From assembly GCA_003599415.1 (NCBI GenBank), contig QZKB01000148.1:1-64000 (forward strand): a DNA stretch of 64,000 nt. The letters run 5' to 3'. The stretch comes from Ignavibacteriales bacterium (GTDB lineage Bacteria; Bacteroidota; Ignavibacteria; Ignavibacteriales; SURF-24). The notes under the pieces were generated by a model. It did not search any database. It was not told where the DNA came from and saw nothing but the letters and a program-made list of their open reading frames with translations. Position 1 is the first letter of the stretch. Every line of letters begins with the position of its first letter. The translations under genes were made by a program, and so were the position numbers. Below, one piece after another: positions 2,277 to 34,441 of the stretch.

Positions 2277-2323
2277 AAAACCAATTGGTCAATGCTACCA
2301 AATAAAACTTTGATATTTGTCTT

Positions 2324-11810: not shown

Positions 11811-11821
11811 ATGAGTATAAC

Positions 11822-17836: not shown

Positions 17837-20461
17837 ATGAATAATATTTCCAGGCGGGAATTTGTTAAAACATCTGCGTTAAGCGGAGCCGGATTTTTTA
17901 TCTTTCCTTCTCTTAAGAAGGAAGGAAAGAAAGAAATTCTTCTTCCGGAACAAATTGATGACATAAAAATATCATCTCAGCAATATCTTGATCTGGCACC
18001 CGCCGAATGGATATGGTATCCCTCCGAAAGAACTTTACAGAATACGATGATTCTTTTCAGGAAGAAAATTGTAATAACAAAAAAAATTAGATCCGCTTCC
18101 GGCTGGATACTTGCAGACAGCAGGTATGTGTTTTATGTAAATGAAAAGAGAATTCAATTCGGTCCCGCACCATCGGACCCGCGATGGATAGAGGTTGACC
18201 CGCTTGAGCTTACAAATAATTTAACTTCCGGTGAAAATGTTTTGGGTGCGCAGGTTTTGTTTTACGGAAGCGGGGACGGTACATCACCAATTGGCAAACC
18301 CGGTTTCCTGTTCTATCTTAAAATTGAATTTGAAGATGGGACTAATGAAATAGTTGTTTCTAATGGAGAATGGAAATCTTACCTGCCTAAAAGCTGGAAA
18401 GCAGGCCAGTATAAAAGATGGTACCTGCGTTCTTTCCAGGAAGAATTTGATGCAAGAAAATTTCCTTACGGCTGGCTGAACAAATCATTCCGGGAAAATA
18501 ATGATTGGCTTGCAGCAATGAAGTTAGATTGCCCGCCCGATAAACCTTCGATCTGTTCTTATTATTATGAATATCTTTATGAAACCTGGGGGGACAGGAA
18601 AATTAGTTATTTAACTCCGCGCAGTATTCCATTGATGAATGAAGAAACAGTTTCGGGTTTTAAACTTGCAGAAGCATATCAGATTTTATGGAATAGGCAG
18701 CCGGAAGAATACTTTGATTTTCTTGTCCCGGATTCTTTTACCAGGGGGAAAGAAGTTTCTGTAAATAAAGTTCAGGACGAATTTCAACTTACTTTAAATG
18801 AAAATGAAGCTGCAGTCCTGACCTTTGAACTTGATGAGCAGGTAGTGGGCTGGCCTAAGTTTACTGTAGATGCGCCTGAAGGAACAATAATAGAAATGAT
18901 GGTGCACGAGGCACATAAAGCCAGCGGACCTGTGCTGTTGAATTCGCATTTTAATTCCTGGACCAGATTTATTTGTAAGGAAGGAGTTAACAATTTCTCT
19001 GTCTTTGATTTTGAAAGCTTCCGATGGATTCAATTACATATAAGGAATGGCGGAGGAAAAATTACTTTAAGCAATCTTAATGTGATAAGAAGAGTTTATC
19101 CATGGCAGAACAAACATAATATTATTCTTTATGATGCAGCGTTGCAAAAATTAATGGATGCCTGCGTAAACACGTTAAAAAATTCTGCACAGGAAACAAT
19201 AGTTGATGGTATGGCCCGCGAACGCCAGCAATATAGTGGAGACGGCGGTCATCAGCTTCATGCCCTCTACTATTCTTTCGGTGAAACGAAACAACAAGCG
19301 AGGTTTATAAAAACATTTTCTCAGGGGCAAACTCCCGATGGATATTTTCTTGATTGCTGGCCTGCTTATGATCGTCTTGCAAGATTAATGGAAAGACAGC
19401 TTCAGCTTACAGACTGGGGACCACTGTTAGATCATGGAATAGGTTTTAATTTTGATTGCTACTACTATTATCTGTATACAGGAAATCTGGAAGCTCTTGA
19501 AGAAGCATTTCCAAGATTGATTAAATTCTTCTACTATCTTAAAAGTATTATTCGTGAAGACGGACTTCTGCCTGTGGAAAATACAGGATTGCCAAGTGTG
19601 TGGATTGATCATGAGGCTTTCAGGCAGCAAAGACATAAACAATGCTCTTTCAATCTTTATGCTTCAGCTATGATGTTGAATGCGCTTGCCCCTCTTTGCC
19701 ATTCATTTAAGAAATTTAAAATTGAGGAAGATGTAAAACAGATAGGTAAGAACATCCTGAACGCAGCAGTAAAAAAATTCTGGAGTGATGACAAAAAGTT
19801 ATTCGTTGATAATCTTCCATGGCTTCAGGAGGAGAATGAAATCAGATTATCGGACAGAACTCTTGCCACCGCAATTCTTTTTGATCAATGTCCGGGTGCT
19901 GATAGTAACTCAATAAAAACTTTGGCTGATGCACCTGAAGAATTAGGAGTCTCTTATCCTCCCAATGCAATATGGAGATACTGGGCATTGGCTAAATCAG
20001 GAAAGATGGAAGTTGTTGTAGATGATTTCAGAAAAAGATGGGCAACGATGGATTCGGTTCTTTTAAATAATACTATTCAGGAAGGATGGAAATCTTTACC
20101 TGATAACTGGTCGCAATGGAGCCATTGCGGAGTCGTTCCTTTAATAATTTTATTTCAAGGTATTGCGGGAATTATGCCGCTTGAACCGGGATTTAATTCA
20201 TATAAGATTTATCCCCAGCTTGCGGATTTGGGAAAACTTGAACTTACTGCTTATACAGTGAAAGGTAGGATAGAGTTTTCTTCTGTGGGAAAATATGGTA
20301 ACCGAGAATTAAAAATAAAAACACTTCCGAATGCAAAAGGTGAGCTTATAATATCAGATAAAGAAAAAACCGATCTGCCGGTTATACGAAGATTTGAAAA
20401 TAAAATAGCCTGCGCTTTACCGGAAAATAAGGAAGTGAAAATTTCCTTAAACTTTACGTGA
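17837..20461 (+). CDS. Tat-exported alpha-L-rhamnosidase-like protein (GH78)
   Basis: An 874-aa protein with a twin-arginine signal, SRREFVK at residues 5-11 followed by TSALSGAGFFIF, so it is exported folded. The N-terminal beta domain contains WIWYPSE and the GH78-type pattern ASGWILADSRYVFYVN. The central catalytic part is an alpha6/alpha6 barrel beginning near the family's signature region: VDGMARERQQYSGDGGHQL here corresponds to the VDCPQRERxGWxGD motif of GH78, followed by GYFLDCWPAY and LTDWGPLLDHG. The C-terminal beta domain closes with YKIYPQLADLGKLELT. Inverting hydrolysis of terminal alpha-L-rhamnosides is expected, but the divergent signature leaves other deoxy- or methyl-sugar glycosides possible. 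Confidence 0.8.
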   Translation: MNNISRREFVKTSALSGAGFFIFPSLKKEGKKEILLPEQIDDIKISSQQYLDLAPAEWIWYPSERTLQNTMILFRKKIVITKKIRSASGWILADSRYVFYVNEKRIQFGPAPSDPRWIEVDPLELTNNLTSGENVLGAQVLFYGSGDGTSPIGKPGFLFYLKIEFEDGTNEIVVSNGEWKSYLPKSWKAGQYKRWYLRSFQEEFDARKFPYGWLNKSFRENNDWLAAMKLDCPPDKPSICSYYYEYLYETWGDRKISYLTPRSIPLMNEETVSGFKLAEAYQILWNRQPEEYFDFLVPDSFTRGKEVSVNKVQDEFQLTLNENEAAVLTFELDEQVVGWPKFTVDAPEGTIIEMMVHEAHKASGPVLLNSHFNSWTRFICKEGVNNFSVFDFESFRWIQLHIRNGGGKITLSNLNVIRRVYPWQNKHNIILYDAALQKLMDACVNTLKNSAQETIVDGMARERQQYSGDGGHQLHALYYSFGETKQQARFIKTFSQGQTPDGYFLDCWPAYDRLARLMERQLQLTDWGPLLDHGIGFNFDCYYYYLYTGNLEALEEAFPRLIKFFYYLKSIIREDGLLPVENTGLPSVWIDHEAFRQQRHKQCSFNLYASAMMLNALAPLCHSFKKFKIEEDVKQIGKNILNAAVKKFWSDDKKLFVDNLPWLQEENEIRLSDRTLATAILFDQCPGADSNSIKTLADAPEELGVSYPPNAIWRYWALAKSGKMEVVVDDFRKRWATMDSVLLNNTIQEGWKSLPDNWSQWSHCGVVPLIILFQGIAGIMPLEPGFNSYKIYPQLADLGKLELTAYTVKGRIEFSSVGKYGNRELKIKTLPNAKGELIISDKEKTDLPVIRRFENKIACALPENKEVKISLNFT

Positions 20462-20538: not shown

Positions 20539-21564
20539 ATGAGAATGCGCCCGGATATTAAGACTTTTCTTACAACATTAAAACGCGGCAAAGGGAATCA
20601 TATTCCTCTCTGCGAACTTGGTGTTCATCCTATCATAAAAGAAAAACTTATCGGTAGACCGGTGAAAGAACTTAAAGATGATATTGAGTTCTGGTACAAA
20701 GCCGGTTATGATTATATCAAACTTCAGCCGGTTGCTGATTTTAATCCTGCAGGAATTGGTTTATCAAATAATGTTACTTTCAACCAGGATGGTACAGTAT
20801 TCAGAAAATGGGCATCAGAAAATCATGGTGTAATTTCAAATTTTGATGATTTTGAGAATTATGTGTTCCCAACGAAAGAAGATTTTAGTTATGAAAAATT
20901 TGATAAAGTAAAACCGGTGCTTCCCCACGGAATGGGAGTGGTTGGTCAGTATGGAGATATTTTTACAATGACCTGGGAAATGATGGGCTTTGAAACTTTC
21001 TCGATTAGCCTTTTTGAAAATCCTGATCTGATAGAAGTTCTTAATAATAAAGTCGGTGAATTGGTTTACAGTATGTTTGAGAATATGGCTCCTCACCCCA
21101 ATGTTGATGCTCTTTGGTATAGCGATGATATTGCGTATACAAATGGTCTGCTTGTTTCTCCTGCTGTTCTTGATCAATTCTTTTTCCCGTGGCTAAAGAA
21201 AATCGGAGACCTTGCAAGAAAATATAACAAGCCGCTTATTTACCATACCGATGGAATTTTGTACGATGTTTTTGATAAAATTATAGATTGCGGGGTTGAT
21301 GCAATTCATCCAATTGAACCGAAAGCGATGGACATTGCAGAAGTTAAAAAACAATATGGTGATAAACTTTGTGTAATCGGCAATATAGATGTTGATTTAC
21401 TTTCGAGGGGAACTGTTGATGAAGTAAAGGAACAAATCATATTAAATATTGAAAAGGTTGGAATGAACGGCGGGTACTGCATTGGCTCGGGTAATTCTAT
21501 TCCGGAGTATGTTAAATATGAAAATTATATTGCAATGCTGGAAATAATAAATGAGAATTACTGA
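20539..21564 (+). CDS. URO-D-like protein (methyltransferase type), divergent zinc motif
   Basis: A uroporphyrinogen-decarboxylase superfamily (beta/alpha)8 protein of 341 aa. The genomic setting fits the corrinoid methyltransferase branch (MtaA/MtbA/CmuA), not haem synthesis. Family features are WYSDDIAYTNGLLVSP, YHTDGILYDVFDKIIDCGVDAIHPIEP and VIGNIDVDLLSRGT. The usual HxCG zinc site is altered to His236-Thr-Asp238-Gly. The later conserved loop is GYCIGSGNSIP, with Ser where MtaA has its third cysteine. This paralog may thus bind metal differently, or bind a substrate rather than zinc-thiolate. It is one of five URO-D proteins in the window and follows the GH78 gene. Confidence 0.82.
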   Translation: MRMRPDIKTFLTTLKRGKGNHIPLCELGVHPIIKEKLIGRPVKELKDDIEFWYKAGYDYIKLQPVADFNPAGIGLSNNVTFNQDGTVFRKWASENHGVISNFDDFENYVFPTKEDFSYEKFDKVKPVLPHGMGVVGQYGDIFTMTWEMMGFETFSISLFENPDLIEVLNNKVGELVYSMFENMAPHPNVDALWYSDDIAYTNGLLVSPAVLDQFFFPWLKKIGDLARKYNKPLIYHTDGILYDVFDKIIDCGVDAIHPIEPKAMDIAEVKKQYGDKLCVIGNIDVDLLSRGTVDEVKEQIILNIEKVGMNGGYCIGSGNSIPEYVKYENYIAMLEIINENY

Positions 21565-21632
21565 CGGGTTTTAGATTTTCTTAATTGCTCAAATTAAAAA
21601 CCATTTATATTCTTTAACTAATTGAGGGTGTC

Positions 21633-22052
21633 ATGAAATATTTAAGCTGTGTTCTGCTTTTTACGACTTTACTTTTAGTATCTAGCTGCAAGGATAATTC
21701 AACTGAAGCAACTGATGAATTCAGTAATGTATTAACATTAGGAACCGGACTTAATCCGCAAAATTTATTTCAACTTACTGGGGAAGGTACTGCTTTTACA
21801 AAGAACACTCCTATATTTTTCAGGTTGGAAAGCAAAGATGATATGGCTGGTTCAACAGTCAGGATAAAAATTGAATTAAAAACAAATGGTACTTATGGTG
21901 AAAATAAATCATTTGATTTTCCTAATCCTCAGAGTTACGGACATATTCTGCTTTCCTCGTTTACTTTAGATGCGGCTGGTAGTTACAGGGCAACAGGAAT
22001 TTTAGTTACCGGAAATAAAACCCTTGCCACAAAGGAGTTTGTTGTTAATTAG
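21633..22052 (+). CDS. Small lipoprotein of unknown function
   Basis: A 139-aa protein with a lipoprotein signal: hydrophobic residues 6-16 and lipobox LVSSC with Cys19. The mature part starts with an acidic, flexible KDNSTEATDEF linker. It then looks like a single beta-sandwich (STVRIKIELKTNG, SFTLDAAGSYRATGILVTGNK). No family was recognised. It lies between two URO-D genes on the same strand, so it may be co-expressed with them. A surface or periplasmic sugar-binding role is only a guess. Confidence 0.7.
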   Translation: MKYLSCVLLFTTLLLVSSCKDNSTEATDEFSNVLTLGTGLNPQNLFQLTGEGTAFTKNTPIFFRLESKDDMAGSTVRIKIELKTNGTYGENKSFDFPNPQSYGHILLSSFTLDAAGSYRATGILVTGNKTLATKEFVVN

Positions 22053-22104
22053 AATTTTGTAATATAAATAATGCATCTTGTATGAAAATTTTTTGTTTTA
22101 AGCA

Positions 22105-23121
22105 ATGACATCTAAAGAACGAATTAAAAATATTATTAATCGAAAACAGGCAGACCGTTGTGGATTCTGGCTTGGCAATCCGCATCCAGATACCTGGCCA
22201 ATACTCCATAAATATTTCGGCACTAACACAGAAGAAGAACTTCGCATAAAACTTAATGACGATTTCAGATGGATTACTCCGCAGTATATGGATTCTACTT
22301 ACCGGCATCCCGAAGGTAAAGGTATATTTGATATATGGAAACACAAGAAAAGTCATAACCAGGAAGGGCCGCTTGCAAATTGCGGGAGAGTTGAAGAAGT
22401 AGATGAATATGACTGGCCGGAATTAAAATATTTAGATTTTAAAGAGTGCCTTGCTGTTTTGAAAAGTTCGGGAAGTTATTATATTGCAAGTGGATTTTGG
22501 GTGCCTTTCTTTCATGACATAATAGATTTGTTTGGAATGGAGAATTACTTCCTTAAGATGTACACTAATCCAGACATTATTCACAGGGTAACGGAAAAAG
22601 TTTGTTCATTCTATTTGGAAGCTAATAAAAAATTCTTTGATGAAGCGGGTAATCTTGTTGATGCCTATTTCTTTGGTAATGATTTCGGAACACAAACGGG
22701 TTTGATTTTAAATCCTGTACAGTTTGATGAATTCATTTTACCATGGTTTAATAAGTTTGTCCTTCAGGCTCATAGTTTTGGATACCAGCTTATTCTGCAT
22801 TCTTGCGGTTCGGTCTTTAATGTAATTCAAAAATTAATTGATGCGGGAGTTGATTGCCTTCATCCTTTACAGGCAAAAGCAAAAGATATGGACGCAGAAA
22901 CATTGGCTGACCGGTTTAAAGGAAAAATTACTTTTATGGGTGGAATCGATACACAGGAACTGCTTGTTAACGGAACGCCTGCTCAGGTTAAGAACGAAGT
23001 TAAAAGAATTATAAATATACTTGGACCAGACCTCATCGTAAGTCCAAGTCACGAAGCATTATTACCGAATATTCCACCGCAAAATGTTGCCGCAATGGCA
23101 GAAGCGGTTTTGGAAACTTGA
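22105..23121 (+). CDS. URO-D-like corrinoid methyltransferase-type protein
   Basis: A 338-aa URO-D superfamily protein. It has the zinc-type motif His232-Ser-Cys234-Gly in LILHSCGSVFNVI, followed by DAGVDCLHPLQAKAKDMDAETLADRFKG split over the next strands. The barrel continues with MGGIDTQELLVNGTP. The third-ligand loop reads SPSHEALLPNIPP, with His near the place of the MtaA cysteine. These features suit methyl transfer to or from a corrinoid protein, as in MtaA/CmuA, more than tetrapyrrole decarboxylation. The corrinoid partner is encoded on the opposite strand at 33773-34441. The substrate is unknown. Confidence 0.85.
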   Translation: MTSKERIKNIINRKQADRCGFWLGNPHPDTWPILHKYFGTNTEEELRIKLNDDFRWITPQYMDSTYRHPEGKGIFDIWKHKKSHNQEGPLANCGRVEEVDEYDWPELKYLDFKECLAVLKSSGSYYIASGFWVPFFHDIIDLFGMENYFLKMYTNPDIIHRVTEKVCSFYLEANKKFFDEAGNLVDAYFFGNDFGTQTGLILNPVQFDEFILPWFNKFVLQAHSFGYQLILHSCGSVFNVIQKLIDAGVDCLHPLQAKAKDMDAETLADRFKGKITFMGGIDTQELLVNGTPAQVKNEVKRIINILGPDLIVSPSHEALLPNIPPQNVAAMAEAVLET

Positions 23122-23140
23122 ATTAATTTTAAGGATGATT

Positions 23141-24937
23141 ATGAAATCTCTTCTTACTCTTCTTCTCTTTACCGCATATGTGTTTGCACAGGTTAATATT
23201 TTGCCAAGACCCGAACATCCAAGACCCCAGTTCGAAAGAAGCGACTGGATAAATTTAAATGGAGAATGGACTTACTCATTTGATTTTGGAAATTCAGGTC
23301 GTGATAAAAACTGGATGAGCAAAGAAAAATTTGACGGGAAAATTATTGTTCCTTTCTGCCCGGAAAGTAAATTATCCGGTGTTGAGTATAAAGATTTTAT
23401 TGAGCATATGTGGTACCAGAGAACATTAGACATTCCTGCTAACTGGAATGGGAAGAGAATCATTTTGAATTTTGGAGCGGTTGATTATGAAAGTGAAGTC
23501 TATATTGATGGCAAATCTGTTGGTGTTCATTATGGAGGAACGTCATCATTCGGATATGATATTACCCGTTATGTGGCTGCGGGTAAAACACATAACCTGG
23601 TCGTAAGAATTGCTGACGATAGTCGAAACGGCGAGCAGCCCTCAGGCAAACAATGCTATGCTTATAATTCTGAAGGATGTTTCTATACGCGTACAACAGG
23701 AATCTGGCAGACAGTCTGGCTCGAAGCTGTAAACCAGTTCGGACTAAAAGATTGTTATATTATACCGGATCTTGATAATAACCAGTTCAATTTTATTCCA
23801 CGATTTTATGAAATGAAACAGGGATTAAAACTTAGAATCACTTTGTCTAACGGACAGGAAAAAGTCGCTCAGACTTCAGCATCTGTTTCAAGTGGAAATA
23901 TGATAAGTGTTCAGGTAAAAAATCCAGTTACCTGGTCACCTGAGAATCCTTTCCTGTATAATATTTTATTAGAAATAATTGATCCTTCCGGAAATGTTTT
24001 GGATAAAGTGAGCAGTTACTCCGGGATGAGGAAGGTTCATATTGAGGGAAATAAAATTTATTTAAATAACAAACCATATTACCTGCGTTTTGTGTTAGAC
24101 CAGGGATTTTATTCTGATGGAATCTGGACGGCGCCTACAGATGAAGCATTGAAGCATGATATAGAGTTATCTATGAATGCAGGTTTTAACGGTGCCCGGC
24201 TGCATCAGAAAGTTTTTGAAGAAAGATTCCATTACTGGGCAGATAAACTTGGTTATCTCACCTGGGGTGAATCTTCAAGCTGGGGATGTAACACCAATAA
24301 AGTTGAAGCGGCAAGAAATTTTTTAAGCGAATGGGAAGAGATTGTTGTAAGAGACAGGAATCATCCTTCAATTATTACCTGGACTCCATTCAATGAAACA
24401 TGGGAAAGATCCGAGAGCGATGGCAAACAACATAACAGGTTTCTTACGGATGCATATAAACTTACTCACAACCTGGACTATACAAGACCGGTTCATGATG
24501 TAAGCGGAAATTACCACGTCAAAACAGATATCTGGACGGTTCATTTGTATGACCAGGATCCGGAGAAGTTGAAACAAAATTTAACTGTTGATCCTGAAAA
24601 AGGTGTTTATAGAAATAACCCTAAATATGAAGTTGAATATACCGGCCAGCCATATCTTGTTGATGAGTACGGCGGAATTAAATGGATTGCAGGAAACGCA
24701 TTTGCTCAAAACTCATGGGGCTATGGAACCGGACCAAAAACTTTGGATGAGTTCTACAACAGACTTGATGCGCTGACAAATGTCATTCTAAATTTCGACC
24801 ACATAGTGGGTTATTGTTATACACAGCTTACCGATATTGAGCAGGAGCAAAATGGAATTTATAACTACGACAGGTCGGAAAAATTCGATATGGCAAAAAT
24901 TAAAAACATATTCGGCAGATCAAAAGAAATAAAGTAA
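23141..24937 (+). CDS. Exported GH2 beta-glycosidase
   Basis: A 598-aa GH2 family retaining beta-glycosidase. The ATG at 23141 begins a Sec signal (MKSLLTLLLFTAYVFAQ) and follows AAGGATGATT; a longer start at 23084 would overlap the previous gene and bury the signal. The sugar-binding domain has WINLNGEWTYSFDFG and the strand VDYESEVYIDGKSVG. An immunoglobulin-like domain follows, then a TIM barrel with acid/base Glu419 in PFNETWERS and nucleophile Glu509 in LVDEYGGIKW. Acting in the periplasm, it probably removes a beta-linked galactosyl, glucuronyl or mannosyl residue. It lacks the long C-terminal extension of the GH2 at 14310. Confidence 0.88.
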   Translation: MKSLLTLLLFTAYVFAQVNILPRPEHPRPQFERSDWINLNGEWTYSFDFGNSGRDKNWMSKEKFDGKIIVPFCPESKLSGVEYKDFIEHMWYQRTLDIPANWNGKRIILNFGAVDYESEVYIDGKSVGVHYGGTSSFGYDITRYVAAGKTHNLVVRIADDSRNGEQPSGKQCYAYNSEGCFYTRTTGIWQTVWLEAVNQFGLKDCYIIPDLDNNQFNFIPRFYEMKQGLKLRITLSNGQEKVAQTSASVSSGNMISVQVKNPVTWSPENPFLYNILLEIIDPSGNVLDKVSSYSGMRKVHIEGNKIYLNNKPYYLRFVLDQGFYSDGIWTAPTDEALKHDIELSMNAGFNGARLHQKVFEERFHYWADKLGYLTWGESSSWGCNTNKVEAARNFLSEWEEIVVRDRNHPSIITWTPFNETWERSESDGKQHNRFLTDAYKLTHNLDYTRPVHDVSGNYHVKTDIWTVHLYDQDPEKLKQNLTVDPEKGVYRNNPKYEVEYTGQPYLVDEYGGIKWIAGNAFAQNSWGYGTGPKTLDEFYNRLDALTNVILNFDHIVGYCYTQLTDIEQEQNGIYNYDRSEKFDMAKIKNIFGRSKEIK

Positions 24938-24967
24938 TAAATGTTTTTTATATAATTGGAGAGGCTA

Positions 24968-25714
24968 ATGTACCAGGAAATTAATAGCTCAGTCTTTAGT
25001 TTGCCAAAGGCATTGCTAAAGCTTGGAAATTATTCACGTGGTGAGTCCGATGATTTGATTCAACAGGGAAAAGTTACCGTAAACCAAAAAGTTGTTAAGG
25101 AAACGAATACAAGGGTGAACCTTATTACGGATGTAATAAAAGTTGATGGGCATACCGTCGAACATAAAGATAAAGTTTATATTATGCTGAATAAACCAAG
25201 CGGAGTTATTACAACGGCATCAGATGATATCAGGAGAGAAACTGTTTACGATTATTTAAAAGATGACCGGATGCCCTGGGTTGTTCCTGTTGGTAAATTA
25301 GATAAAGCAAGTGAAGGTTTGATCTTTCTGACTAACGATTATAAATGGGCGGAAAAGTTGGCTGCTGCAGAACCAAAGCTTGAAAAAACTTATCACATGA
25401 AAATTAATCTTGTTCCTGATGAAGAGATGATTGAAAAAATGAAGACGGGTGTCAAAACAGATTCGGGTGAAGTAATTTCATTTAAAGAAGTAAAGATTAA
25501 TAAAGCGGCGGACAAATTCAGCTGGGTAGAATTTGTTATTATCGAGGGTAAGGATAAACAGATTCGCAGGCTTTTATCTGCATTGAATTTAAATGCATTC
25601 AGATTAATAAAAGCAGCTATCGGTCCGGTAAGAATCGGTGAATTACAGAAGGGACGATACAGAAGACTAAATGAAGTTGAAATGGAAGCCCTGAAAGATC
25701 TTATTTCATCATAG
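24968..25714 (+). CDS. Pseudouridine synthase, RsuA/RluB/RluF family
   Basis: Isomerises a specific uridine in rRNA. The N-terminal S4-like RNA-binding domain (SLPKALLKLGNYSRGESDDL then GKVTVNQKVV) covers about residues 10-60. The catalytic domain has VGKLDKASEGLIFLTND with catalytic Asp112, and GKDKQIRRLLSAL. The ATG at 24968 (248 aa) is preceded by GGAGAGG three bases upstream, better than the TTG at 24956. A housekeeping gene, it ends the plus-strand gene run. Its last 14 bases overlap the 3' end of the convergent GH31 gene. Confidence 0.9.
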   Translation: MYQEINSSVFSLPKALLKLGNYSRGESDDLIQQGKVTVNQKVVKETNTRVNLITDVIKVDGHTVEHKDKVYIMLNKPSGVITTASDDIRRETVYDYLKDDRMPWVVPVGKLDKASEGLIFLTNDYKWAEKLAAAEPKLEKTYHMKINLVPDEEMIEKMKTGVKTDSGEVISFKEVKINKAADKFSWVEFVIIEGKDKQIRRLLSALNLNAFRLIKAAIGPVRIGELQKGRYRRLNEVEMEALKDLISS

Positions 25715-28088
25715 TAATTTTTGCCTGTGTAATTCCCTTCAGCTTTATGTTTATGAATTTGTCCCTGTAGCTAAATTTACAACCGGTAATTTGTGCTGTG
25801 TCTGATGTATGTAAACCTGCAGATTTAATTCCAACTTCAGAAAATATATTCAGCTCATAATTTCTTTTTACCTGTCCGGATATTTCAAAAATTATTTTGC
25901 TCGTATCCTGCGAACAGGAATATTTTGTAATTAAGTTATCCTCGTACTGGGTATAGTTAGAATCATCGGAAGGATAAACTGTTATTATTAACTTATCAAT
26001 AAACTTTTCGGGAATTCGTTTTCGCAATTCCATCATCGGAATAATTGCCCCTTCTCTTACATAAACGGGCATATCCTCAAGCGGCATTGTAATGTTTTTA
26101 TTCGCAATCCCATTAACAACTTCACCGTTATGAAAATCAATCCACTTACCTTTGGGGAAATAAACTGTTCTTGTGTTGGTTTTATTATAAATCGGGGCTA
26201 CAAGAAAATGCGGACCGAACATAAATTCCAGGTCTTTATTGTATGTATTAGGGTCATCCGGAAAAATTAATGGAAGCGCACGCAAAACCGGCATACCTGT
26301 AAGACCGGCCTCAATTGCAGCGCTGTAAATATATGGGAACAGTTGGTATCTTAGAATAATATACTTGCGTACATAAGCCAATGCTACTTCACCAAAATAC
26401 ATCGGCTCGCGCGGGCTGTCTCCATGCATCCTGCTGTGCGAACAGAATAAACCAAACTGTGCCCATCTAATAAATAATTCCTCCGAAGGTATACCACGGT
26501 AACCGCCAATATCATTACTCCAGAAAGATACTCCCGACATTCCTATTGATAATCCTCCGCGGATTGTACCTGCAAGACTTTCAAAATCTGCCGCGGGATC
26601 TGCAGACCAGCAAACAGGATATCTCTGATTTCCTGTAGTGCCGGAACGGCTCCAGACGAAACCATAACCTTTTTCTTCATTCGTTACTTCACTTACCGCT
26701 TTGTTGTAAATAAGAGGATAAAGATTGTGCATTGTCTTGCCGGTCTGTCCGTTAAAAAAAACAGAATCCTCTGGAATGTCTTCACCAAAATCTGTTTTAA
26801 ATACACTAACGCCATCTCTTAATATCGCGCGATGTAAATCTTTGTACCAGTTATAGGCATCAGGATTTGTCAGATCAATTATTGCTACACGGGCATTCCA
26901 GGAATTTTGTTGTGTAGCAGTTCGTATTATTCCATCAGGCCTTGGTGCTAATGATAATCCATAATCGATTATATATGGCTTGCCCGATGGAGTTTTAACA
27001 AAGTAATCTTTCTCAATCCCAATTTTGTAAAGGTCGCTTTCAATTGAAATATAGGGATGCTCCCAAAGGCAAACTTTTAATCCTTTGGAATTAAGGTCGG
27101 CAATAAATTTTTCTATTTCAGGAAAAGCTTCCCTGTTCCATTTAAAATTGCAGTACTCGCGCCACTGCATCCACCACGGATCAATATGAATTACATCAGC
27201 AGGCAAATTATTTTCTTCAATTTCATTTACAAGCTTTTCCATAGCTTCCTGGTTGCGGTATGTTCCTCCTGATGAATACCACAACCCAAATGACCATTTT
27301 GGAGGCACAGGTGATCTTCCTGTAAGCAGTGTGTAATTATATAAAATGTTTTTTGGCTCCGGTCCGTAAATTATATATACATCAAGAATGCCTGATTCAT
27401 TTTTTATTGTATAAGACTGGCAGGATTCAGTTCCCAGTTCCCATGTAATTTTAGAGCTTGAATTAACAAACAGTCCGTAGCCTTTAGTGCTCCAAAGGAA
27501 AGGAATATTTTTGTGTGAGCGTTCGCTTGTGGAGCCGAATGCATCCATTGTCCAGGAAATTATTTTTTGTCCCACCTTATTAAGGGGAACGAATTTTTCG
27601 CCTAACCCAAACAATGCTTCATCGGGACGTAAATAAAAAGATTGGGTTGTAAGGTTAATATCTTTTTCTTTTTTTGTAAATCCGAGTGGAAGTACAAAAG
27701 GTCTTCCAAGTCCGTCAATATCAAGAATGTTCTCACGGAGAATTTCATTGCCATTCTCATCAAGGAAGTAAATACAAAACGGATCCCTGCATACAACAAG
27801 TTTAAGTTTTGTCCCGGTAATTTCAATTCCGCATGCTGTTTCATGGACTTCAAGCTGAATCTTGTCATCACTTTCAAATTGAACGAACTCTTTTAGAATT
27901 TCATTTCCGGATTCCGGCGGGAAGAATGAGTATTTCCAGATTTCATCAGTTACTGCCTTGAATAGCAGTTCTGCATTCCACCCATATGCAGTAGAGCAAT
28001 TTAAAAGAATTATATTTCCCTTCAGATACCAGTTCTTGAAATTAATTATCCAATCAAAATTTTCCGGTGCGTTATGGGGTATCAGCAT
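25701..28088 (-). CDS. GH31 alpha-xylosidase-like (YicI type), cytoplasmic
   Basis: A 795-aa GH31 retaining alpha-glycosidase without a signal peptide, so it is cytoplasmic. The nucleophile is Asp433 in FKTDFGEDIPED; the KTDFGE form is that of E. coli YicI alpha-xylosidase, not the WxDMNE of alpha-glucosidases. Asp497 in CWSADPAAD is the acid/base, and the spacing from the nucleophile (64 residues) is close to YicI's (66). GVSFWSNDIGGY and LFCSHSRMHG also match. It is the last gene of the corrinoid/URO-D operon, 44 bases after a URO-D gene. Release of alpha-xylose, possibly modified, is the likely activity. Confidence 0.9.
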   Translation of the reverse strand: MLIPHNAPENFDWIINFKNWYLKGNIILLNCSTAYGWNAELLFKAVTDEIWKYSFFPPESGNEILKEFVQFESDDKIQLEVHETACGIEITGTKLKLVVCRDPFCIYFLDENGNEILRENILDIDGLGRPFVLPLGFTKKEKDINLTTQSFYLRPDEALFGLGEKFVPLNKVGQKIISWTMDAFGSTSERSHKNIPFLWSTKGYGLFVNSSSKITWELGTESCQSYTIKNESGILDVYIIYGPEPKNILYNYTLLTGRSPVPPKWSFGLWYSSGGTYRNQEAMEKLVNEIEENNLPADVIHIDPWWMQWREYCNFKWNREAFPEIEKFIADLNSKGLKVCLWEHPYISIESDLYKIGIEKDYFVKTPSGKPYIIDYGLSLAPRPDGIIRTATQQNSWNARVAIIDLTNPDAYNWYKDLHRAILRDGVSVFKTDFGEDIPEDSVFFNGQTGKTMHNLYPLIYNKAVSEVTNEEKGYGFVWSRSGTTGNQRYPVCWSADPAADFESLAGTIRGGLSIGMSGVSFWSNDIGGYRGIPSEELFIRWAQFGLFCSHSRMHGDSPREPMYFGEVALAYVRKYIILRYQLFPYIYSAAIEAGLTGMPVLRALPLIFPDDPNTYNKDLEFMFGPHFLVAPIYNKTNTRTVYFPKGKWIDFHNGEVVNGIANKNITMPLEDMPVYVREGAIIPMMELRKRIPEKFIDKLIITVYPSDDSNYTQYEDNLITKYSCSQDTSKIIFEISGQVKRNYELNIFSEVGIKSAGLHTSDTAQITGCKFSYRDKFINIKLKGITQAKITMMK

Positions 28089-28132
28089 ATTTGTTATTGT
28101 TCAGTTGAAGTAAAAAAAATTTTTGTTTTTAT

Positions 28133-29275
28133 TTATTCTGCATTAAGCAGTTTATAGATTTCAAAAAGATCAGTTTCCGGCCAGTGCTCATCTATCAATC
28201 CGTTGGTGACATCAACATTAATAAAAAGACCGCGATTGGTTTTCTTTGCTTTAAGTATTCGTTCAACATAATCTTTTATACTGTTGAACCTGATATTCTG
28301 ATTAAAACCTATTCTGCAAGCAAGAGGAATCTTCCCGTTAAATTGTCTGAGCACTTCTTCATAATTTGCTTCGCTTGCTCCAAATTCAAGTCCTCTCAGA
28401 TTTTTAATCTTCTCCAAACTTGAAAATTGGTGTAGCCAGTTACCGCAGGAATGAATATATATTCCGCCAAACTCTTCGGAGAGTTGATTTATATAAGGAA
28501 GATGAAATTCATCATGCATCTCTGCAGAGATCATAACACACTCATCATTTGAAATTGAAACACCCGAGCCATCCGGCAGCCATGGCTGGAACATTGCCGG
28601 AACGAATTCAACACCTGCTTCTTTAACTATTCTTCTCTGTTCTTTAACAAAATCAATTGTAAGATCAGTAACCATTTTCATCAGGTGATGAACTTCCGTA
28701 GGATTTGTATGCATTGCCATTAATAAATTATTATGGCCAAAGATCAATGCTGCGCTATCCAAAGGTCCTTGGATATCAGTCAGACGAATAGGAAACTTTC
28801 CGGATGTTTCTTTAATAAAGTACTTTGAATAATCAAGCACTCTTTTAAGTTCACCGGAATCAACTTTTGGTTTTTCTATTTTATATACGTCACCAGGGTC
28901 ATCACTTAAAGCTGCTTTGCAGGAAGGGAAATCATTATTCCACCAAACAACTTCACATCCGAATGCCGAAGGTATTGCAACAACTCCGAGTGAAGGGCAA
29001 AGCGATGGAACATAATCACCTTTTAATTTAATCTGTCCGGCAATTTCAGTTAACTGTGCTTTAAGATATTTCTCCGGGTCAAGAAGCCTGTCGTTTACGG
29101 TGTCAATTCCATCAGTAGAGAAGAGTGCACTTTTAACAGGTTCACCACCTTTCACTTTAGGGCCAACGTAGCTTATCATAAAAGCCGGGCGTTCATTGTT
29201 TTCAAGATTCCAGAATTTGTTCAGGAAATCTTTGCTCTGTTTGGAAATATTTGTTACTGGATTAATTGGGTTCAT
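28133..29275 (-). CDS. URO-D-like corrinoid methyltransferase-type protein
   Basis: A 380-aa URO-D superfamily protein with the zinc-type motif His275-Ser-Cys277-Gly in YIHSCGNWLHQF. It has an N-terminal extension relative to the 340-aa paralogs. Its C-terminal loop (LFINVDVTNGLIDEHW) lacks the third cysteine of MtaA and resembles neither the SPSHE nor the SPSDH loops of the other paralogs, suggesting a distinct substrate. It is encoded between GH31 and another URO-D gene in the minus-strand operon (44- and 27-base gaps), downstream of the corrinoid protein. Confidence 0.85.
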   Translation of the reverse strand: MNPINPVTNISKQSKDFLNKFWNLENNERPAFMISYVGPKVKGGEPVKSALFSTDGIDTVNDRLLDPEKYLKAQLTEIAGQIKLKGDYVPSLCPSLGVVAIPSAFGCEVVWWNNDFPSCKAALSDDPGDVYKIEKPKVDSGELKRVLDYSKYFIKETSGKFPIRLTDIQGPLDSAALIFGHNNLLMAMHTNPTEVHHLMKMVTDLTIDFVKEQRRIVKEAGVEFVPAMFQPWLPDGSGVSISNDECVMISAEMHDEFHLPYINQLSEEFGGIYIHSCGNWLHQFSSLEKIKNLRGLEFGASEANYEEVLRQFNGKIPLACRIGFNQNIRFNSIKDYVERILKAKKTNRGLFINVDVTNGLIDEHWPETDLFEIYKLLNAE

Positions 29276-29302
29276 AAGTCTTAATTGTGTGCACTTTAAA
29301 AA

Positions 29303-30481
29303 TTACTGTTGAGATAAATCGATTGCAGCCAGCATCATTGCATTTATATTTTCTATTGGGGTACCGGGAGGAATATTACTTCCGTCCTGTAATATGAATC
29401 CTTTATAAGGTGCAAGCTTACCAATAACTTTTTTGCATTCAAGTTTTATTTGCTCCGGTGTACCTGAATAAATTAACATCGGGTTAACGTTACCTACTAA
29501 AACTACTTTCCCTCCCATAACTTCGGCTATATAATCCAAATCAACCTGGTAACCAAATCCCTGCAGTTCATTTATTCTTAAATCATCACGAAAAACTTTC
29601 AGAAGGTGATCGCTTTTACCGCACATATGCAATGAAAGGTAACCATCGAAGTTATCTCTCAGCCTCTTTTCAAACGGAAGAACTATTTCCCGGAATTGTT
29701 CTTCTGAAAGCGAAACTGCAAAATCATCTGTCCAGGCAAAATCTTTTGGTACGGGAAGTTTTTCTTCCTGCCAGCAAAAATCTAAATACTCAATCAACTT
29801 GTCAGTTACAATTCTTAAAAGTTCTTTAACAAACTCGGGGCGTTCAAAGATTGCTTCAAAAATTTCTGTGTTGCCCATTAAATCACTTGCAATACCAAAC
29901 GGTCCGTCCGATGTATGTGTTAATGATGGACTTAATCCGGGATAAAATATTTCTCCGCCTAAAAATTGAACCGGATATTTTTCGGCAATATCAATCATTT
30001 GATTTCTGTATTCAATCTGCTTTGCATTTATACCGGAATGAATGAAATCCATATCTTCAAGTTTTTTCAAATCGCTGTCATCTTTTATCCATGGTTTCCC
30101 AACCCAGGGAATATCGTCATCGGGAAAAATAATATTGCAGCCAAGGCTGCCTGATTCAAATGTATTCTGGAAGTCTGTCCATGCCCCTGTCCAAGGGCCT
30201 GTAATTGAATACGCATCTGTTCTAATATTTTCCAGAAGCCATTTTTGTGCAAGTATCTGGGTTCTAAGCATCGTTTCCGGATCACGATAATAATCCTTGA
30301 AACTTGTTCCGGTTTTAGGAATTAGAAACCGATGAGCAATTGCGGGAATTACAGGTACACGGTCTACAGCTTTAAATCTTTTTGCGTTTTCAACTCTTTG
30401 TTTCCTGTCAGCTAATTCTTCTGTTGTTATATTTATAGTAATTGGTTCATTCATTTTAATAAATGCATTTCCTTGCTTCAT
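29303..30481 (-). CDS. URO-D-like corrinoid methyltransferase-type protein
   Basis: A 392-aa URO-D superfamily protein with His285-Met-Cys287-Gly in LSLHMCGKSDHLL, the metal-site motif of methyltransferase members. The barrel continues with VVLVGNVNPMLIYSGTPEQI, close to MtaA-like sequences, and a final loop FILQDGSNIPPGTPIENI. The start at 30481 overlaps the upstream URO-D gene by 26 bases. An ATG at 30454 (383 aa) would leave a one-base gap and is equally possible. It probably transfers methyl groups between a substrate or carrier and the operon's corrinoid protein. Confidence 0.85.
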   Translation of the reverse strand: MKQGNAFIKMNEPITINITTEELADRKQRVENAKRFKAVDRVPVIPAIAHRFLIPKTGTSFKDYYRDPETMLRTQILAQKWLLENIRTDAYSITGPWTGAWTDFQNTFESGSLGCNIIFPDDDIPWVGKPWIKDDSDLKKLEDMDFIHSGINAKQIEYRNQMIDIAEKYPVQFLGGEIFYPGLSPSLTHTSDGPFGIASDLMGNTEIFEAIFERPEFVKELLRIVTDKLIEYLDFCWQEEKLPVPKDFAWTDDFAVSLSEEQFREIVLPFEKRLRDNFDGYLSLHMCGKSDHLLKVFRDDLRINELQGFGYQVDLDYIAEVMGGKVVLVGNVNPMLIYSGTPEQIKLECKKVIGKLAPYKGFILQDGSNIPPGTPIENINAMMLAAIDLSQQ

Positions 30482-31610
30482 CAGAAAAAGCTTTAAGTAA
30501 ATTTAAATCAGCATCAAAAAAATGATCTGAAGGGGAAAGAATAAATCCACCGCCTTCACCTGCATCTTCAAAACATTTTCTTACAGCTTTTCTTGTTTCG
30601 TTTTCCGAACAATCTTTTAAATAATGAAACTGGTCGAAACCGCCAATCATACATACACGATTCCCGATTCGTTTCTTAGCTTCACTTAGAATTGTATCTC
30701 CGCCCATTTCTGCCGGAGTAAATGTTTCCATTGCATCTGTGTTCATATCAGCAATCATTTCAAGGAAGGGCATCATACCACCACAAGTGTGATAAACTAT
30801 TTTTTGTCCGGCCTGGTGGGCAATATTAATTAATTCTGCATCGTACGGTGAGACAAATTCTTCAAAAATATTCGGAGAGATAACGGTGCTTGAAGCATCG
30901 CCGCCGCCGTGTTCTATCAAATCATATTTAGCCCCTTTAAGGGATTGCGTGTAAATCTTTTTCTTTTCAAAAAGAATTTTAAGAAATGTATGAACCCAAT
31001 CGGCATCATCGAATGTAGCCATAATTAAATTTTCAATTCCAAACAGAACGGATGCATCCTGCCAGCAGCCGGATTGCCCGTACACATCAAAAAAGTTTAT
31101 TAAGCCTCTAATCATTCCGCGCTCGCCGTACACTTCCGCCTGCCGGTTTATTTCTGCAACGTTACATTTAGGGGCAACAGCAAATTCTGCAATAATTTCT
31201 ATGTCGGATTTATCTTTAATTAATCTTTCGGAAACCCAGCTTGTATATTCATTGCTTTGCAGGACCATTGACAGAGTCTTCTTTGGAGTAACGAATTTAT
31301 ATCTTATAGTTTTATAGGTTTCATTGGGAATTTCTTCAGTAAAAATTCTCCAGGTATCTGTTGAAATTCTTCTTGCTTCAAGATAACCGGGAACATGAAG
31401 AGGATCGTAATATTCACCTTTTGATTCATCCGGCATATAAGCCTGAACCCAATTGATCGGATCCAGTTCAAATTCATCAAAGAATTCCTGGTTTGTTTTT
31501 CCATCAAGATATTTGTCAAGAAAATAAGTCTGTACATGATGAGTTGTAACCGGAAGCCTGTCTGGCTTTTGTCTGTTTATTGCTGCGTTAAACCTTTGTT
31601 TGGAAGTCAT
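30456..31610 (-). CDS. URO-D-like corrinoid methyltransferase-type protein
   Basis: A 384-aa URO-D superfamily protein. The motif His274-Thr-Cys276-Gly is in IVYHTCGGMMPFLEMI, followed by TDAMETFTPAEMGG, VCMIGGFDQFHYL and the loop FILSPSDHFFDADL. The SPSDH loop recalls the SPSHE loop of the plus-strand paralog at 22105. It starts MTSKQRFNAAINRQKPDRLP, the classic N-terminus of methyltransferase-type URO-Ds. It sits between ribose pyranase (60-base gap) and another URO-D gene (overlap). Its exact methyl donor is unknown. Confidence 0.86.
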   Translation of the reverse strand: MTSKQRFNAAINRQKPDRLPVTTHHVQTYFLDKYLDGKTNQEFFDEFELDPINWVQAYMPDESKGEYYDPLHVPGYLEARRISTDTWRIFTEEIPNETYKTIRYKFVTPKKTLSMVLQSNEYTSWVSERLIKDKSDIEIIAEFAVAPKCNVAEINRQAEVYGERGMIRGLINFFDVYGQSGCWQDASVLFGIENLIMATFDDADWVHTFLKILFEKKKIYTQSLKGAKYDLIEHGGGDASSTVISPNIFEEFVSPYDAELINIAHQAGQKIVYHTCGGMMPFLEMIADMNTDAMETFTPAEMGGDTILSEAKKRIGNRVCMIGGFDQFHYLKDCSENETRKAVRKCFEDAGEGGGFILSPSDHFFDADLNLLKAFSDEARKCIY

Positions 31611-31670
31611 ACTGAATCTTTCCGAAAAAAGAGTGAATTATTTAATTGAATGCAATGAACCAAAATTATT

Positions 31671-32075
31671 TTAAAAAACGACTCCGGCAACTAAAATGAA
31701 GTTTGCAAACGGAGTAGCCTCGCCAGTCTTAACAAACGTAATATTTCTTTGTTCGTTATTTATTTTTTTAAATTCCTCGTGGCATATTTTTTTTATCGGT
31801 ATATTTTCCGGAACAATTTCTTTAAGTGATTTAAGAATGTGAGAACTTCTTTGCTCCATTTCGTTGGTAATTATTATACTCTCAATTTTTAACTCATCAA
31901 GTATTGCTTTCGCGACATCAATTATACGCGGAAGATTAATCGTAACTGAAAGATCAATAACTTTTGCGCCGTGCGGAATGGGGTAACCGCAATCGCATAT
32001 TACAAGCCAATCCCCGTGACCAAAAGATGCAATTGTTTGGGCAAGCTGAGCATTCAGAATTCCGCCTTTCTTCAT
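31671..32075 (-). CDS. rbsD: D-ribose pyranase
   Basis: Interconverts pyranose and furanose forms of ribose so that ribokinase can use it. At 134 aa it is the usual RbsD length. It begins MKKGGILNAQLAQTIASFGH, with catalytic His20 and Asp28 at the family positions (GHGDWLVICDCG), and PIPHGAKVIDLSV follows. The ribokinase stop lies one base upstream of its start, the normal rbsD/rbsK partnership. Finding both inside a corrinoid/URO-D operon suggests that a pentose, possibly demethylated ribose, is a product of this pathway. Confidence 0.93.
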   Translation of the reverse strand: MKKGGILNAQLAQTIASFGHGDWLVICDCGYPIPHGAKVIDLSVTINLPRIIDVAKAILDELKIESIIITNEMEQRSSHILKSLKEIVPENIPIKKICHEEFKKINNEQRNITFVKTGEATPFANFILVAGVVF

Positions 32076-32076
32076 T

Positions 32077-33003
32077 TTAAACCTTTGTACTTAATCTTAA
32101 AAAATGCTCAACATCCTTTCGTAACGGAATGGAAGGTTGAGCGCCGGATTTAGTTACAGACAATGCTGAAGCCGCATTACCGAATATTGCTGCTTCAATC
32201 AAAGATTTATCTTCTGCCAATGCAGTTACGAGTGCGCCGTTAAAAACGTCTCCTGCGGCTGTTGTATCAACAGCATCAACTTTAAATGACGTAATAAATT
32301 CTCTGATGTCTTTTGTAGCCAGGAAAATTCCTTTTGCACCAAGCGTTATAATAACTGTGTCAATTCCTTTTGCCATAAGAAATTCTGCCGCATCAGAAAT
32401 ATCATTATCAGATTTAATGTTTTTCCCTGTTAAGATTTCCGCTTCTGTTTCGTTTGGAGTAATGATAGAAATACACTTTAGCAATTCATCATCCAGGTAT
32501 TGTGCCGGTGCTGGATTTAGAATTATCTTTTTATTTAAATGATTAGCAATCTTTGCAGCAGCTTTAACCGTTTCCAATGGAATTTCAAGCTGCATTAAGA
32601 GAAAATCGTTTTGTTCAATTAACTCTGAAATATTTTGAATGTCTTCCGGGGTTATTTTCATATTTGCACCGGAAGCAACTGCAATACTATTCTCACCATC
32701 TTCAGAAACATAAATTAAAGCAACACCGGTCGACTCGTTCTCATCAATTAAAATATATTCTGTATTTATACCGTCCAGCCTGTAACCTTCTAGCGATTGT
32801 TTTCCAAAGCTATCTTTACCAACCTTGGAAACAAATGTTACGTTTCCGCCGGATCTTGCCGCTGCAACAGCCTGGTTAGCCCCTTTACCGCCTGCAGCTA
32901 AAAGAAATCTACCACCGAGAATAGTTTCTCCCGGTTTGGGAATCCTGGGAACGTTCACAATCATATCTGTATTCGAGCTGCCGATAACCAGGATTCTTTT
33001 CAT
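32077..33003 (-). CDS. rbsK: Ribokinase
   Basis: ATP-dependent phosphorylation of ribose at O5, in the cytoplasm. The 308-aa PfkB-family protein has the sugar-binding GGKGANQA at residues 38-45 and the catalytic signature DTTAAGD with Asp252, the same form as E. coli RbsK. NPAPAQYLDDELL and ITLGAKGIFLA are also family features. It is followed one base later by rbsD and preceded two bases earlier by the MetH-activation-like gene, so the four genes upstream of the URO-Ds are tightly co-transcribed. Other pentose or PfkB substrates cannot be excluded. Confidence 0.92.
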   Translation of the reverse strand: MKRILVIGSSNTDMIVNVPRIPKPGETILGGRFLLAAGGKGANQAVAAARSGGNVTFVSKVGKDSFGKQSLEGYRLDGINTEYILIDENESTGVALIYVSEDGENSIAVASGANMKITPEDIQNISELIEQNDFLLMQLEIPLETVKAAAKIANHLNKKIILNPAPAQYLDDELLKCISIITPNETEAEILTGKNIKSDNDISDAAEFLMAKGIDTVIITLGAKGIFLATKDIREFITSFKVDAVDTTAAGDVFNGALVTALAEDKSLIEAAIFGNAASALSVTKSGAQPSIPLRKDVEHFLRLSTKV

Positions 33004-33005
33004 AT

Positions 33006-33698
33006 TTATTTTGTCCTTCTTCTAAAGCAGCTTTCCATTTCACAGATAGAGCATTGATAATCATATTTTTTAACATTGGTTCCTATGCCAACAATTCCGC
33101 TAACAGATTTAATTGGAATCATTAGTGCGCTTTCAGTTAGTGATATGCCGCAGAAATTTTGTGGAAGGAGAGAAAAAAGTTTGTGTTGTTCTTTCACTAT
33201 CCAACCGCAATAACCAGGGCTGTAGCGGTTAGTAATTTTGAAATTATTATCAGAAACTATTTCCTGTAGTTTTATTTCAAGAAGATCTGCTGCACATTCA
33301 ACCACTTCAGAACCAATAGCATCAAGTATATAACCTTTTAAAATATCTATCCCGCTCAGATAATCTTTAGACATCGTTTCAATTTCAGGTCCGGCCGTAG
33401 CAACAAAGATTGCAGCAGCAGTAGAATTTCTTAACGGCTTTGCAATAATTGCTCCGGTATTAAATTGTATATTTTCTATAAATAAGGAATCTTTTTTGTC
33501 GTTTAGGTGAATTGAATCAAAAATTCTGAAACCGGCTTTTACGTGAATTAATCTATCAATAACAGGCAGGAGTTCATCAATGGAATGCAAAACCGGTTCT
33601 GGGGCAGAACTATTTTTATAACCAATTGCTTTTAATATAGACGGAACAGAAATTTTAATTTCATTGCCGGAGAATGAATATTCGTAAAGGTCTTTCAC
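33006..33698 (-). CDS. MetH activation-domain-like protein (corrinoid reactivation candidate)
   Basis: A 230-aa protein resembling the AdoMet-binding activation domain of B12-dependent methionine synthase, as in the stand-alone T. maritima TM0269. The AdoMet-site-like motif RYSPGYCGW is at residues 158-166, and the helix IGSEVVECAADLLE precedes it. The C-terminus has cysteines at 216, 219 and 224 (CSICEMESC) next to RRR, suggesting a metal site. It lies between the corrinoid-protein gene and ribokinase. Likely role: reductive remethylation of cob(II)alamin formed when the neighbouring corrinoid protein is oxidised. This is inferred from family and position. Confidence 0.8.
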   Translation of the reverse strand: MKDLYEYSFSGNEIKISVPSILKAIGYKNSSAPEPVLHSIDELLPVIDRLIHVKAGFRIFDSIHLNDKKDSLFIENIQFNTGAIIAKPLRNSTAAAIFVATAGPEIETMSKDYLSGIDILKGYILDAIGSEVVECAADLLEIKLQEIVSDNNFKITNRYSPGYCGWIVKEQHKLFSLLPQNFCGISLTESALMIPIKSVSGIVGIGTNVKKYDYQCSICEMESCFRRRTK

Positions 33699-33772
33699 AA
33701 ATCTTGTCTTCTTTTTGGTAATACAGGTAAACTATTATTGTCTATAAAATCTTTATCTGAATGAATTATTTG

Positions 33773-34441
33773 TCAGGCAAATACGGTATTCAGGTAATCA
33801 AGCGCACCCTGCGGATCAGGCGCATATAAATCTGCACCGATTTTATTTGCAAAATCATTTGTTAAAGGAGCGCCGCCAACCAGTACTTTTATTTCCGGAA
33901 AAACTTCTTTGATATTCTTTGTAATGGTTTCCATGTTCTGCATTGTAGTTGTAAGCAATGCACTTAAGCCAACAGCTTTAACTTTATGCTCTTTAATGGC
34001 ATTTAAAAATTTATCTGCCCCGGCATCAACTCCAAGATCAATAACATTCCATCCGCCGCCTTCAATAACCATAGAAACAATATTTTTTCCGATATCATGT
34101 AAATCGCCTGTAACAGTACCAAGTACAATTGATCCTTTATGTTTTACCTGGCCGCTCTGGAAATAAGGTTTAAGCAATTCCATAGCGCTTTTCATTGCTT
34201 TTGCTGCAATTAAAACATCTGGAACGAAAACTTTATTGTCACGGAATTTTACGCCTATCTTACCCATTCCAACCATTAATCCATTGTTAAGAATATCCTG
34301 TGGATTAATTCCTTCTTCCAAAGCTTTCTTTGTTATCTCGTATGCTCCATCCTGTCCTTTCATATCAGGAGGATAAGGAGATTGAACGTTAATCTTTCCT
34401 CTTTCAACACAGACCGCAAGTTTTTCAAGTAGTTCGTTCAT
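33773..34441 (-). CDS. Corrinoid-binding methyl-carrier protein (MtbC/MtaC-like)
   Basis: A 222-aa cobalamin carrier. Residues 1-90 are the helical cap domain (KKALEEGINPQDILNNGLM, VFVPDVLIAAKAMKSAM). Residues 103-222 are the Rossmann-like B12 domain with Asp113-Leu-His115-Asp-Ile-Gly118, where His115 is the cobalt lower ligand. GLSALLTTTMQ and LVGGAPLTNDFANKIGADLYAPD follow. It is the first gene of the minus-strand operon and would shuttle a methyl group between the URO-D-type methyltransferases and an acceptor. No substrate methyltransferase of the MttB, MtaB or MtrH type is seen in the window. Confidence 0.93.
   Translation of the reverse strand: MNELLEKLAVCVERGKINVQSPYPPDMKGQDGAYEITKKALEEGINPQDILNNGLMVGMGKIGVKFRDNKVFVPDVLIAAKAMKSAMELLKPYFQSGQVKHKGSIVLGTVTGDLHDIGKNIVSMVIEGGGWNVIDLGVDAGADKFLNAIKEHKVKAVGLSALLTTTMQNMETITKNIKEVFPEIKVLVGGAPLTNDFANKIGADLYAPDPQGALDYLNTVFA

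Follow-up and report, generated by a model that had tools for sequence, protein, structure and literature searches.

A candidate corrinoid-dependent pathway for the demethylation of O-methylated sugars in an Ignavibacteriales bacterium

Why would a bacterium place five URO-D proteins and a single corrinoid carrier in the midst of genes for glycoside degradation? The question is raised by a 64,000-nucleotide stretch of an Ignavibacteriales genome (assembly GCA_003599415.1, contig QZKB01000148.1, positions 1 to 64,000; hereafter the window), in which positions 20539–34441 encode five diverged URO-D proteins (UD1–UD5), a corrinoid carrier (COR) and a protein resembling the activation domain of the methionine synthase MetH (ACT). 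We consider it quite probable that the locus carries out oxygen-independent, corrinoid-dependent demethylation of O-methylated sugars. An original prediction made from this sequence had already proposed that the URO-Ds take methyl groups from different O-methyl sugars and load them onto a single corrinoid protein; this is the best-supported of the readings weighed here, with neighbourhoods in many other genomes in agreement. The genes at its centre are as follows:

33773..34441, minus strand: COR (P0013), corrinoid carrier, MtgC/MtbC-like, with the motifs DxHxxG (residue 113) and GGAP (residue 189)
33006..33698, minus strand: ACT (P0012), predicted corrinoid reactivase, a MetH activation domain without MetH
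30456..31610, minus strand: UD5 (P0009), URO-D with HTC, third Cys absent
29303..30481, minus strand: UD4 (P0008), URO-D with HMC, third zinc ligand replaced
28133..29275, minus strand: UD3 (P0007), URO-D with HSC, third Cys absent
20539..21564, plus strand: UD1 (P0001), URO-D with HTD where HxC is expected
22105..23121, plus strand: UD2 (P0003), URO-D with HSC, third Cys absent

Window genes were assigned to families with Pfam and NCBIfam models, and all of the genes named in the original prediction, among them a ribokinase and a ribose pyranase lying between glycoside hydrolases, proved to be intact open reading frames (ORFs) with matching families. The five window URO-Ds score 61.9–135.9 bits on the Pfam model (cut-off 23.9). 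The genome holds nine URO-D genes, five of them inside 11 kb of the window, and UD1–UD5 share just 22–28% pairwise identity and are therefore not recent copies. All five score better on models of methylcobalamin methyltransferases (MtaA/CmuA) than on HemE, with the best window URO-D reaching 91 bits on the curated MtaA, MtbA and mtaA_cmuA models, below their cut-off of 244. The predicted structure of UD5 (pLDDT 92.5) best matches a methylcobalamin:coenzyme M methyltransferase (4ay8/4ay7), then HemE, then MetE. Family membership, together with the model of UD5, places UD1–UD5 in a known substrate-methyltransferase (MTI) fold, which is also their predicted function.

The metal site bears on the kind of methyl group removed. 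S-methyltransferases of the superfamily carry a His-Cys-Cys zinc site, whereas in O-methyltransferases one or both cysteines are replaced (Kountz and Balskus, PMC10418091). In the family alignment the third Cys ligand is absent from UD1–UD5, so that the His-Cys-Cys set occurs in none of the five; aligned with 4ay7, UD4 retains the zinc-site His and Cys and lacks the third ligand. CdmB and a Moorella O-demethylase function without zinc (PMC13222342). The original prediction had remarked that no substrate methyltransferase was visible, but the URO-D proteins MtvB, OdmB, VdmB, MtoB and CdmB are themselves substrate methyltransferases (PMC13222342), so the window URO-Ds can fill this role and a separate MtaB or MttB is not needed. 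A direct partnership of URO-D and corrinoid protein is supported by a CmuA-like fusion of 649 residues on a Myxococcota contig (L104:6440-8389, minus strand), which lies beside an ACT gene and joins a URO-D (residues 1–397) to a corrinoid domain (441–642). Elsewhere in the window genome, a URO-D on contig C8 (L061:203-1216) has an intact His-Cys-Cys site and is possibly an alternative methyl-corrinoid:thiol acceptor enzyme.

The carrier and its activator resemble parts of methionine synthase. P0013 matches the Pfam families B12-binding and B12-binding_2 and carries the B12-binding motif of a corrinoid carrier. P0012 belongs to Pfam Met_synt_B12, and a PDB sequence search with it returned one convincing relative, TM0269 of Thermotoga maritima. 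Foldseek matched the P0012 model (pLDDT 88.7) only to TM0269 (1j6r) and to MetH reactivation domains at E < 0.001, TM0269 being the top match (TM scores 0.75/0.87). P0012 also contains RYSPGY at residue 158, an instance of RxxxGY, which we take to be the motif with which MetH binds S-adenosylmethionine (SAM). P0012 is accordingly predicted to be an activator of the MetH type and not of the RamA type. RACo (RACo_C_ter), the ATP-dependent Ram/RACE activator, was not found in the genome assembly, which is 88.5% complete; no RamA-type activator was visible to the original prediction either, yet an activator of the MetH type is present. Like P0012, TM0268/TM0269 offer a stand-alone MetH activation domain of the same fold, and reactivation of the Thermotoga methionine synthase is reported to depend on TM0269 (Huang et al. 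2007, cited in PMC7857596). Unlike TM0269, which serves methionine synthase and is too short by aligned length to hold it, P0012 has a C-terminal CxxCx4C tail (216–224) whose three cysteines are invariant among 19 aligned sequences. The tail is a low-confidence region of the predicted structure, and our guess is that it holds an iron-sulfur cluster. Neither this tail nor the HTD of UD1 had been noted in the original prediction.

ACT relatives were collected from 396 genomes of the phylum and 80 named contigs (Bacteroidota, Ignavibacteriota, Calditrichota, Spirochaetota, Fibrobacterota and others), and the predicted linkage recurred. Among 91 non-duplicate ACT loci, COR was present in 77, URO-D in 46, a stand-alone homocysteine S-methyltransferase (SMT, PF02574) in 37 and a pterin-binding methyltransferase (PF00809) in 31, the last adjoined by MetV-MetF in most cases. 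A URO-D also occurred in 30 of the 37 SMT loci, compared with 3 of the 31 pterin-type loci. One genome, G116, has the whole set in a single run (L042), COR-ACT-SMT-RbsK-RbsD-LYX-UD5-UD4-UD3-GH31, where LYX is a D-lyxose/D-mannose isomerase. In the window the MetH modules are likewise separate genes rather than one chain, and a complete MetH is another gene on contig C2. The COR/ACT set looks like a methionine synthase split into single-domain genes that retains either its homocysteine module or its folate module, and the URO-Ds would act as its methyl donors; judged by gene content, relatives would supply the methyl acceptor, which the original prediction had not named, either as the stand-alone homocysteine methyltransferase or as the pterin-binding methyltransferase with MetF. 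The URO-D tree that included HemE was read with caution: the HemE set contained two flanking ORFs and long branches met, its root was not used, and only well-supported inner clades were relied on. Each of UD2–UD5 falls in such a clade common to L041, L042 and/or L050, and many COR-ACT(-SMT) loci in Ignavibacteria include a member of the UD1 clade.

Other genes accompany these loci. About a dozen (L088, L090, L107, L125, L149 and others) have a CobW-like GTPase between SMT and ACT, which may serve metal or cobalamin loading. An ADP-ribosylglycohydrolase-family protein lies immediately upstream of COR in L042 (7537-8853). In L086, L105, L102 and similar Bacteroidales loci, the series COR-pterin methyltransferase-MetVF-ACT adjoins genes for a xylulokinase and a xylose isomerase-like protein, and most of these loci have no URO-D nearby.

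Which substrates the window URO-Ds might act on is suggested by the genes around them:

32077..33003, minus strand: PfkB-family sugar kinase, passing the ribokinase equivalog model
31671..32075, minus strand: D-ribose pyranase of the RbsD family (Pfam RbsD_FucU)
25701..28088, minus strand: GH31, YicI-like alpha-xylosidase/alpha-glucosidase, no signal peptide seen; adjoins UD3 in relatives too
23084..24937, plus strand: GH2, nearest solved relative 7xyr, annotated as a beta-glucuronidase
21633..22052, plus strand: small putative lipoprotein, no family matched
17837..20461, plus strand: GH78-like protein, of which a 56% identical copy adjoins COR-ACT-RbsK-LYX-UD5 in L077
14235..17819, plus strand: GH2a, GH2 with a malectin domain, kept in related loci
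11807..14230, plus strand: GH38b, GH38 alpha-mannosidase, no signal peptide seen; kept in related loci
9335..11107, plus strand: SSF sodium:solute symporter, beside GH38b in related loci too
6036..9278, plus strand: GH38a, GH38 alpha-mannosidase
1237..4758, plus strand: sugar ABC transporter (binding protein, double ATPase, permease)

Eight minus-strand genes run from 34441 to 25701 in the order COR, ACT, ribokinase, ribose pyranase, UD5, UD4, UD3 and GH31, and the gaps between them (-26 to +74 bp) fit one operon. The plus strand carries, in a single run, GH38b, GH2a and the GH78-like gene, then UD1 and UD2, then the second GH2, so that the glycoside hydrolases (GHs) near the URO-Ds comprise two GH38, two GH2, one GH78-like and one GH31. 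From base 2 onwards there follow upstream a galactokinase-like gene, the sugar ABC transporter, GH38a and the SSF symporter, and the functional locus is therefore wider than 20539–34441, beginning at or before base 2. GH38b, GH2a and the symporter recur near the window-type operon in three further genomes (G268, G116 and G093), and relatives' loci add LYX (PDB match 7nzo). From this neighbourhood we tentatively suggest O-methylated mannosides or related sugars as substrates of the window locus, a possibility that we rate below even chances. Highly methylated oligomannosidic N-glycans occur in Chlorella vulgaris (PMC6344472). The window ribokinase and RbsD do not by themselves name the sugar, because relatives add a D-lyxose/D-mannose isomerase. 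Two side observations concern the surroundings. In G093 a PhyH-family dioxygenase, a member of an oxygen-dependent family, lies between UD5 and RbsD (L050:14254-15084), within a presumably oxygen-sensitive pathway. In the window, a putative surface protein of 1809 residues (36664-42093, minus strand) has fn3-domain and large secreted-looking proteins nearby (34600-55987).

A more specific substrate is suggested by a second locus of the same genome. On contig C70 (L062:9535-13710) a URO-D directly adjoins a GH115 gene in a xylan-type locus, together with a GH10-like xylanase (weak xylanase support) and a GH8-like protein, both read by eye. URO-Ds of this clade, at 59% identity or more, occur in 8 of the 396 genomes, and in seven of these eight a GH115 gene lies on the same contig, 0.2–22 kb away; GH115 overall is found in 52 of the 396 (Fisher p=3e-6, with genomes that are not independent). 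In G188 and G334 the gene order is GH115-GH43-COR-SMT-ACT-URO-D, followed in G334 by a mannonate dehydratase (by eye), an SDR protein, a xylulokinase-type kinase and a xylose isomerase-like gene. GH115, an alpha-glucuronidase family, frees 4-O-methylglucuronate, which makes the C70 URO-D a strong candidate 4-O-methylglucuronate demethylase; that its substrate is 4-O-methylglucuronate from xylan seems fairly likely on this gene context. The GH115 link is not universal, since URO-Ds of the GH115-linked type (53–54% identity) in two Bacteroidales genomes (L221:8110-12078 and L235:4871-8976) adjoin glycine dehydrogenase (GcvP) instead. Twenty URO-D regions sampled from three pterin-type genomes, without a matched background, had GH38 (2), GH29 (2), GH2, GH123 and sugar transporters nearby. 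A sugar link recurs across distinct URO-D clades.

We propose the following mechanism. Glycoside hydrolases and transporters would bring O-methyl sugars into the cytoplasm, where each URO-D, to judge by fold, family and neighbourhood, would bind one methylated sugar and transfer its methyl group to the Co(I) of the shared COR. A separate S-methyltransferase of MetH type would then move the group from methyl-COR to homocysteine, the candidate for this partner here being a gene on contig C42; in Bacteroidales relatives, with MetF adjoining, the acceptor would be tetrahydrofolate. When COR is oxidised by accident, ACT would restore it by reductive methylation with SAM, in the way that TM0269 restores MetH, with the extra cysteine cluster perhaps carrying electrons for this repair. 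The demethylated sugar would proceed to a mutarotase and then to the PfkB kinase.

Several observations weigh against this proposal. First, the zinc motif of UD1 is HTD, so that even the Cys of HxC is gone. Second, the assignment of sugars as substrates is drawn from gene neighbourhood only, and a general clustering of genes in polysaccharide loci could explain the proximity. Third, ribokinase and RbsD suggest ribose, a poor fit to mannosides, and LYX was not found in the window genome (G000), G268 or G244. Fourth, the acceptor methyltransferase, SMT, is not in the window cluster, unlike in many relatives' COR loci; the stand-alone SMT on C42 has the zinc motif GGCCG and is only 43% identical to the module SMT of L042 (own MetH domain, 35%). 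Finally, the expectation that URO-Ds would adjoin the pterin-type Bacteroidales loci proved false, as no URO-D was found nearby in 28 of the 31. In favour of the proposal, however, URO-Ds sit elsewhere in these genomes, occurring away from the hub locus in 10/10 pterin-type genomes tested (1–20 matches each, fragments included).

Among other explanations, the window URO-Ds might remove methyl groups from lignin-type methoxy-aromatics or glycan-bound feruloyl groups, as MtvB, OdmB and MtoB do. The closest characterised URO-D O-demethylases use methoxy-aromatics (PMC13222342), zinc-ligand loss is known in that group, and UD4 matches CdmB at E=1e-8. The acetogen and archaeal systems concerned (MtvBCA, OdmB/VdmB, MtoBC and CdmBCA) likewise combine a URO-D methyltransferase, an MtgC/MtbC-like carrier and a separate acceptor methyltransferase. 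They are activated, however, by an ATP-dependent RACE protein instead of a MetH domain, while the window type differs in having several URO-Ds per carrier and, in many relatives, a homocysteine acceptor. Their context is aromatic or haloalkane; here the genes conserved nearby encode kinases and isomerases of sugars, a mutarotase, mannosidases and glucuronidases, and no aromatic-ring genes were present among the families scanned. We regard aromatic O-demethylation as unlikely.

A role in salvaging methyl-sulfur or methyl-selenium compounds, in which the URO-Ds would remove S- or Se-methyl groups as the Mlps encoded by type 1 mlp clusters do, is quite improbable. The Mlps are of the same superfamily, and their clusters similarly place multiple URO-Ds beside a single corrinoid protein and lack a folate methyltransferase (PMC10418091); the acceptor module of relatives is a homocysteine enzyme, and the genome's own C8 URO-D carries His-Cys-Cys. 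Yet zinc ligands, activator and context all misfit: the clusters have a His-Cys-Cys site, seen in 0/5 window URO-Ds, and a Ram/RACE protein, not found in the genome, and they lie in a sulfur/selenium context, whereas the neighbours scanned here include many sugar genes and no selenium or sulfur genes.

It is very improbable that the locus is biosynthetic, with the URO-Ds methylating sugars in reverse, or that they perform some other corrinoid-linked sugar reaction. The direction of methyl transfer is not readable from sequence, but the identified neighbours indicate breakdown and uptake, and methyl-cobalamin is energetically an unfavourable donor for methylating a hydroxyl. That UD1–UD5 are ordinary haem enzymes, HemE paralogues beside unrelated neighbours, as the Pfam name URO-D might suggest, has a negligible chance given that the true HemE is a separate, full gene on C8 (484.7 bits), that the HemE equivalog model is reached by UD4 alone (33.7 bits against a cut-off of 302.95) with MtaA/CmuA scores higher for all five, and that the linkage is kept over several families.

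Corrinoid-dependent sugar demethylation thus remains the reading that we prefer, and two further systems help to place it. In Ruegeria, MtgC/MtgD and a split methionine synthase (PMC12478193) also use one corrinoid protein for demethylation and methionine synthesis, with MetH modules on separate genes, but the donor enzyme there acts on glycine betaine, in contrast to URO-D-type donors in sugar loci. P450-dependent demethylation of 6-O-methyl-D-galactose in marine bacteria likewise removes an O-methyl group within polysaccharide degradation, but needs oxygen and releases formaldehyde (PMC10033563), whereas the proposed route would be oxygen-free and conserve the methyl group. The corrinoid systems found in the literature act on aromatic, haloalkane, amine and sulfur/selenium substrates; no corrinoid sugar O-demethylase was found in the open literature, subscription papers not being covered, in keeping with the original view that a multi-URO-D sugar-demethylation operon is not known as characterised.

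O-methyl sugars are common, as 4-O-methylglucuronate in xylan, in algal N-glycans, and in algal and microbial polysaccharides. We lean somewhat towards the broader view that anaerobic glycan O-demethylation is widespread, built on one corrinoid hub of split methionine-synthase parts and many sugar-specific URO-Ds in polysaccharide loci of their own, with methyl groups delivered to the methionine/folate pool. The documented demethylation of O-methyl sugars found in the literature relies on oxygen and P450 (PMC10033563); a corrinoid route, if true, would explain how anaerobes use such sugars. The clearest prediction is demethylation of 4-O-methylglucuronate by the GH115-linked URO-D clade. If the proposal is correct, many unassigned URO-Ds, with up to 20 matches in one Bacteroidales genome, would gain a function, and glycan breakdown would be linked to methionine and one-carbon metabolism.

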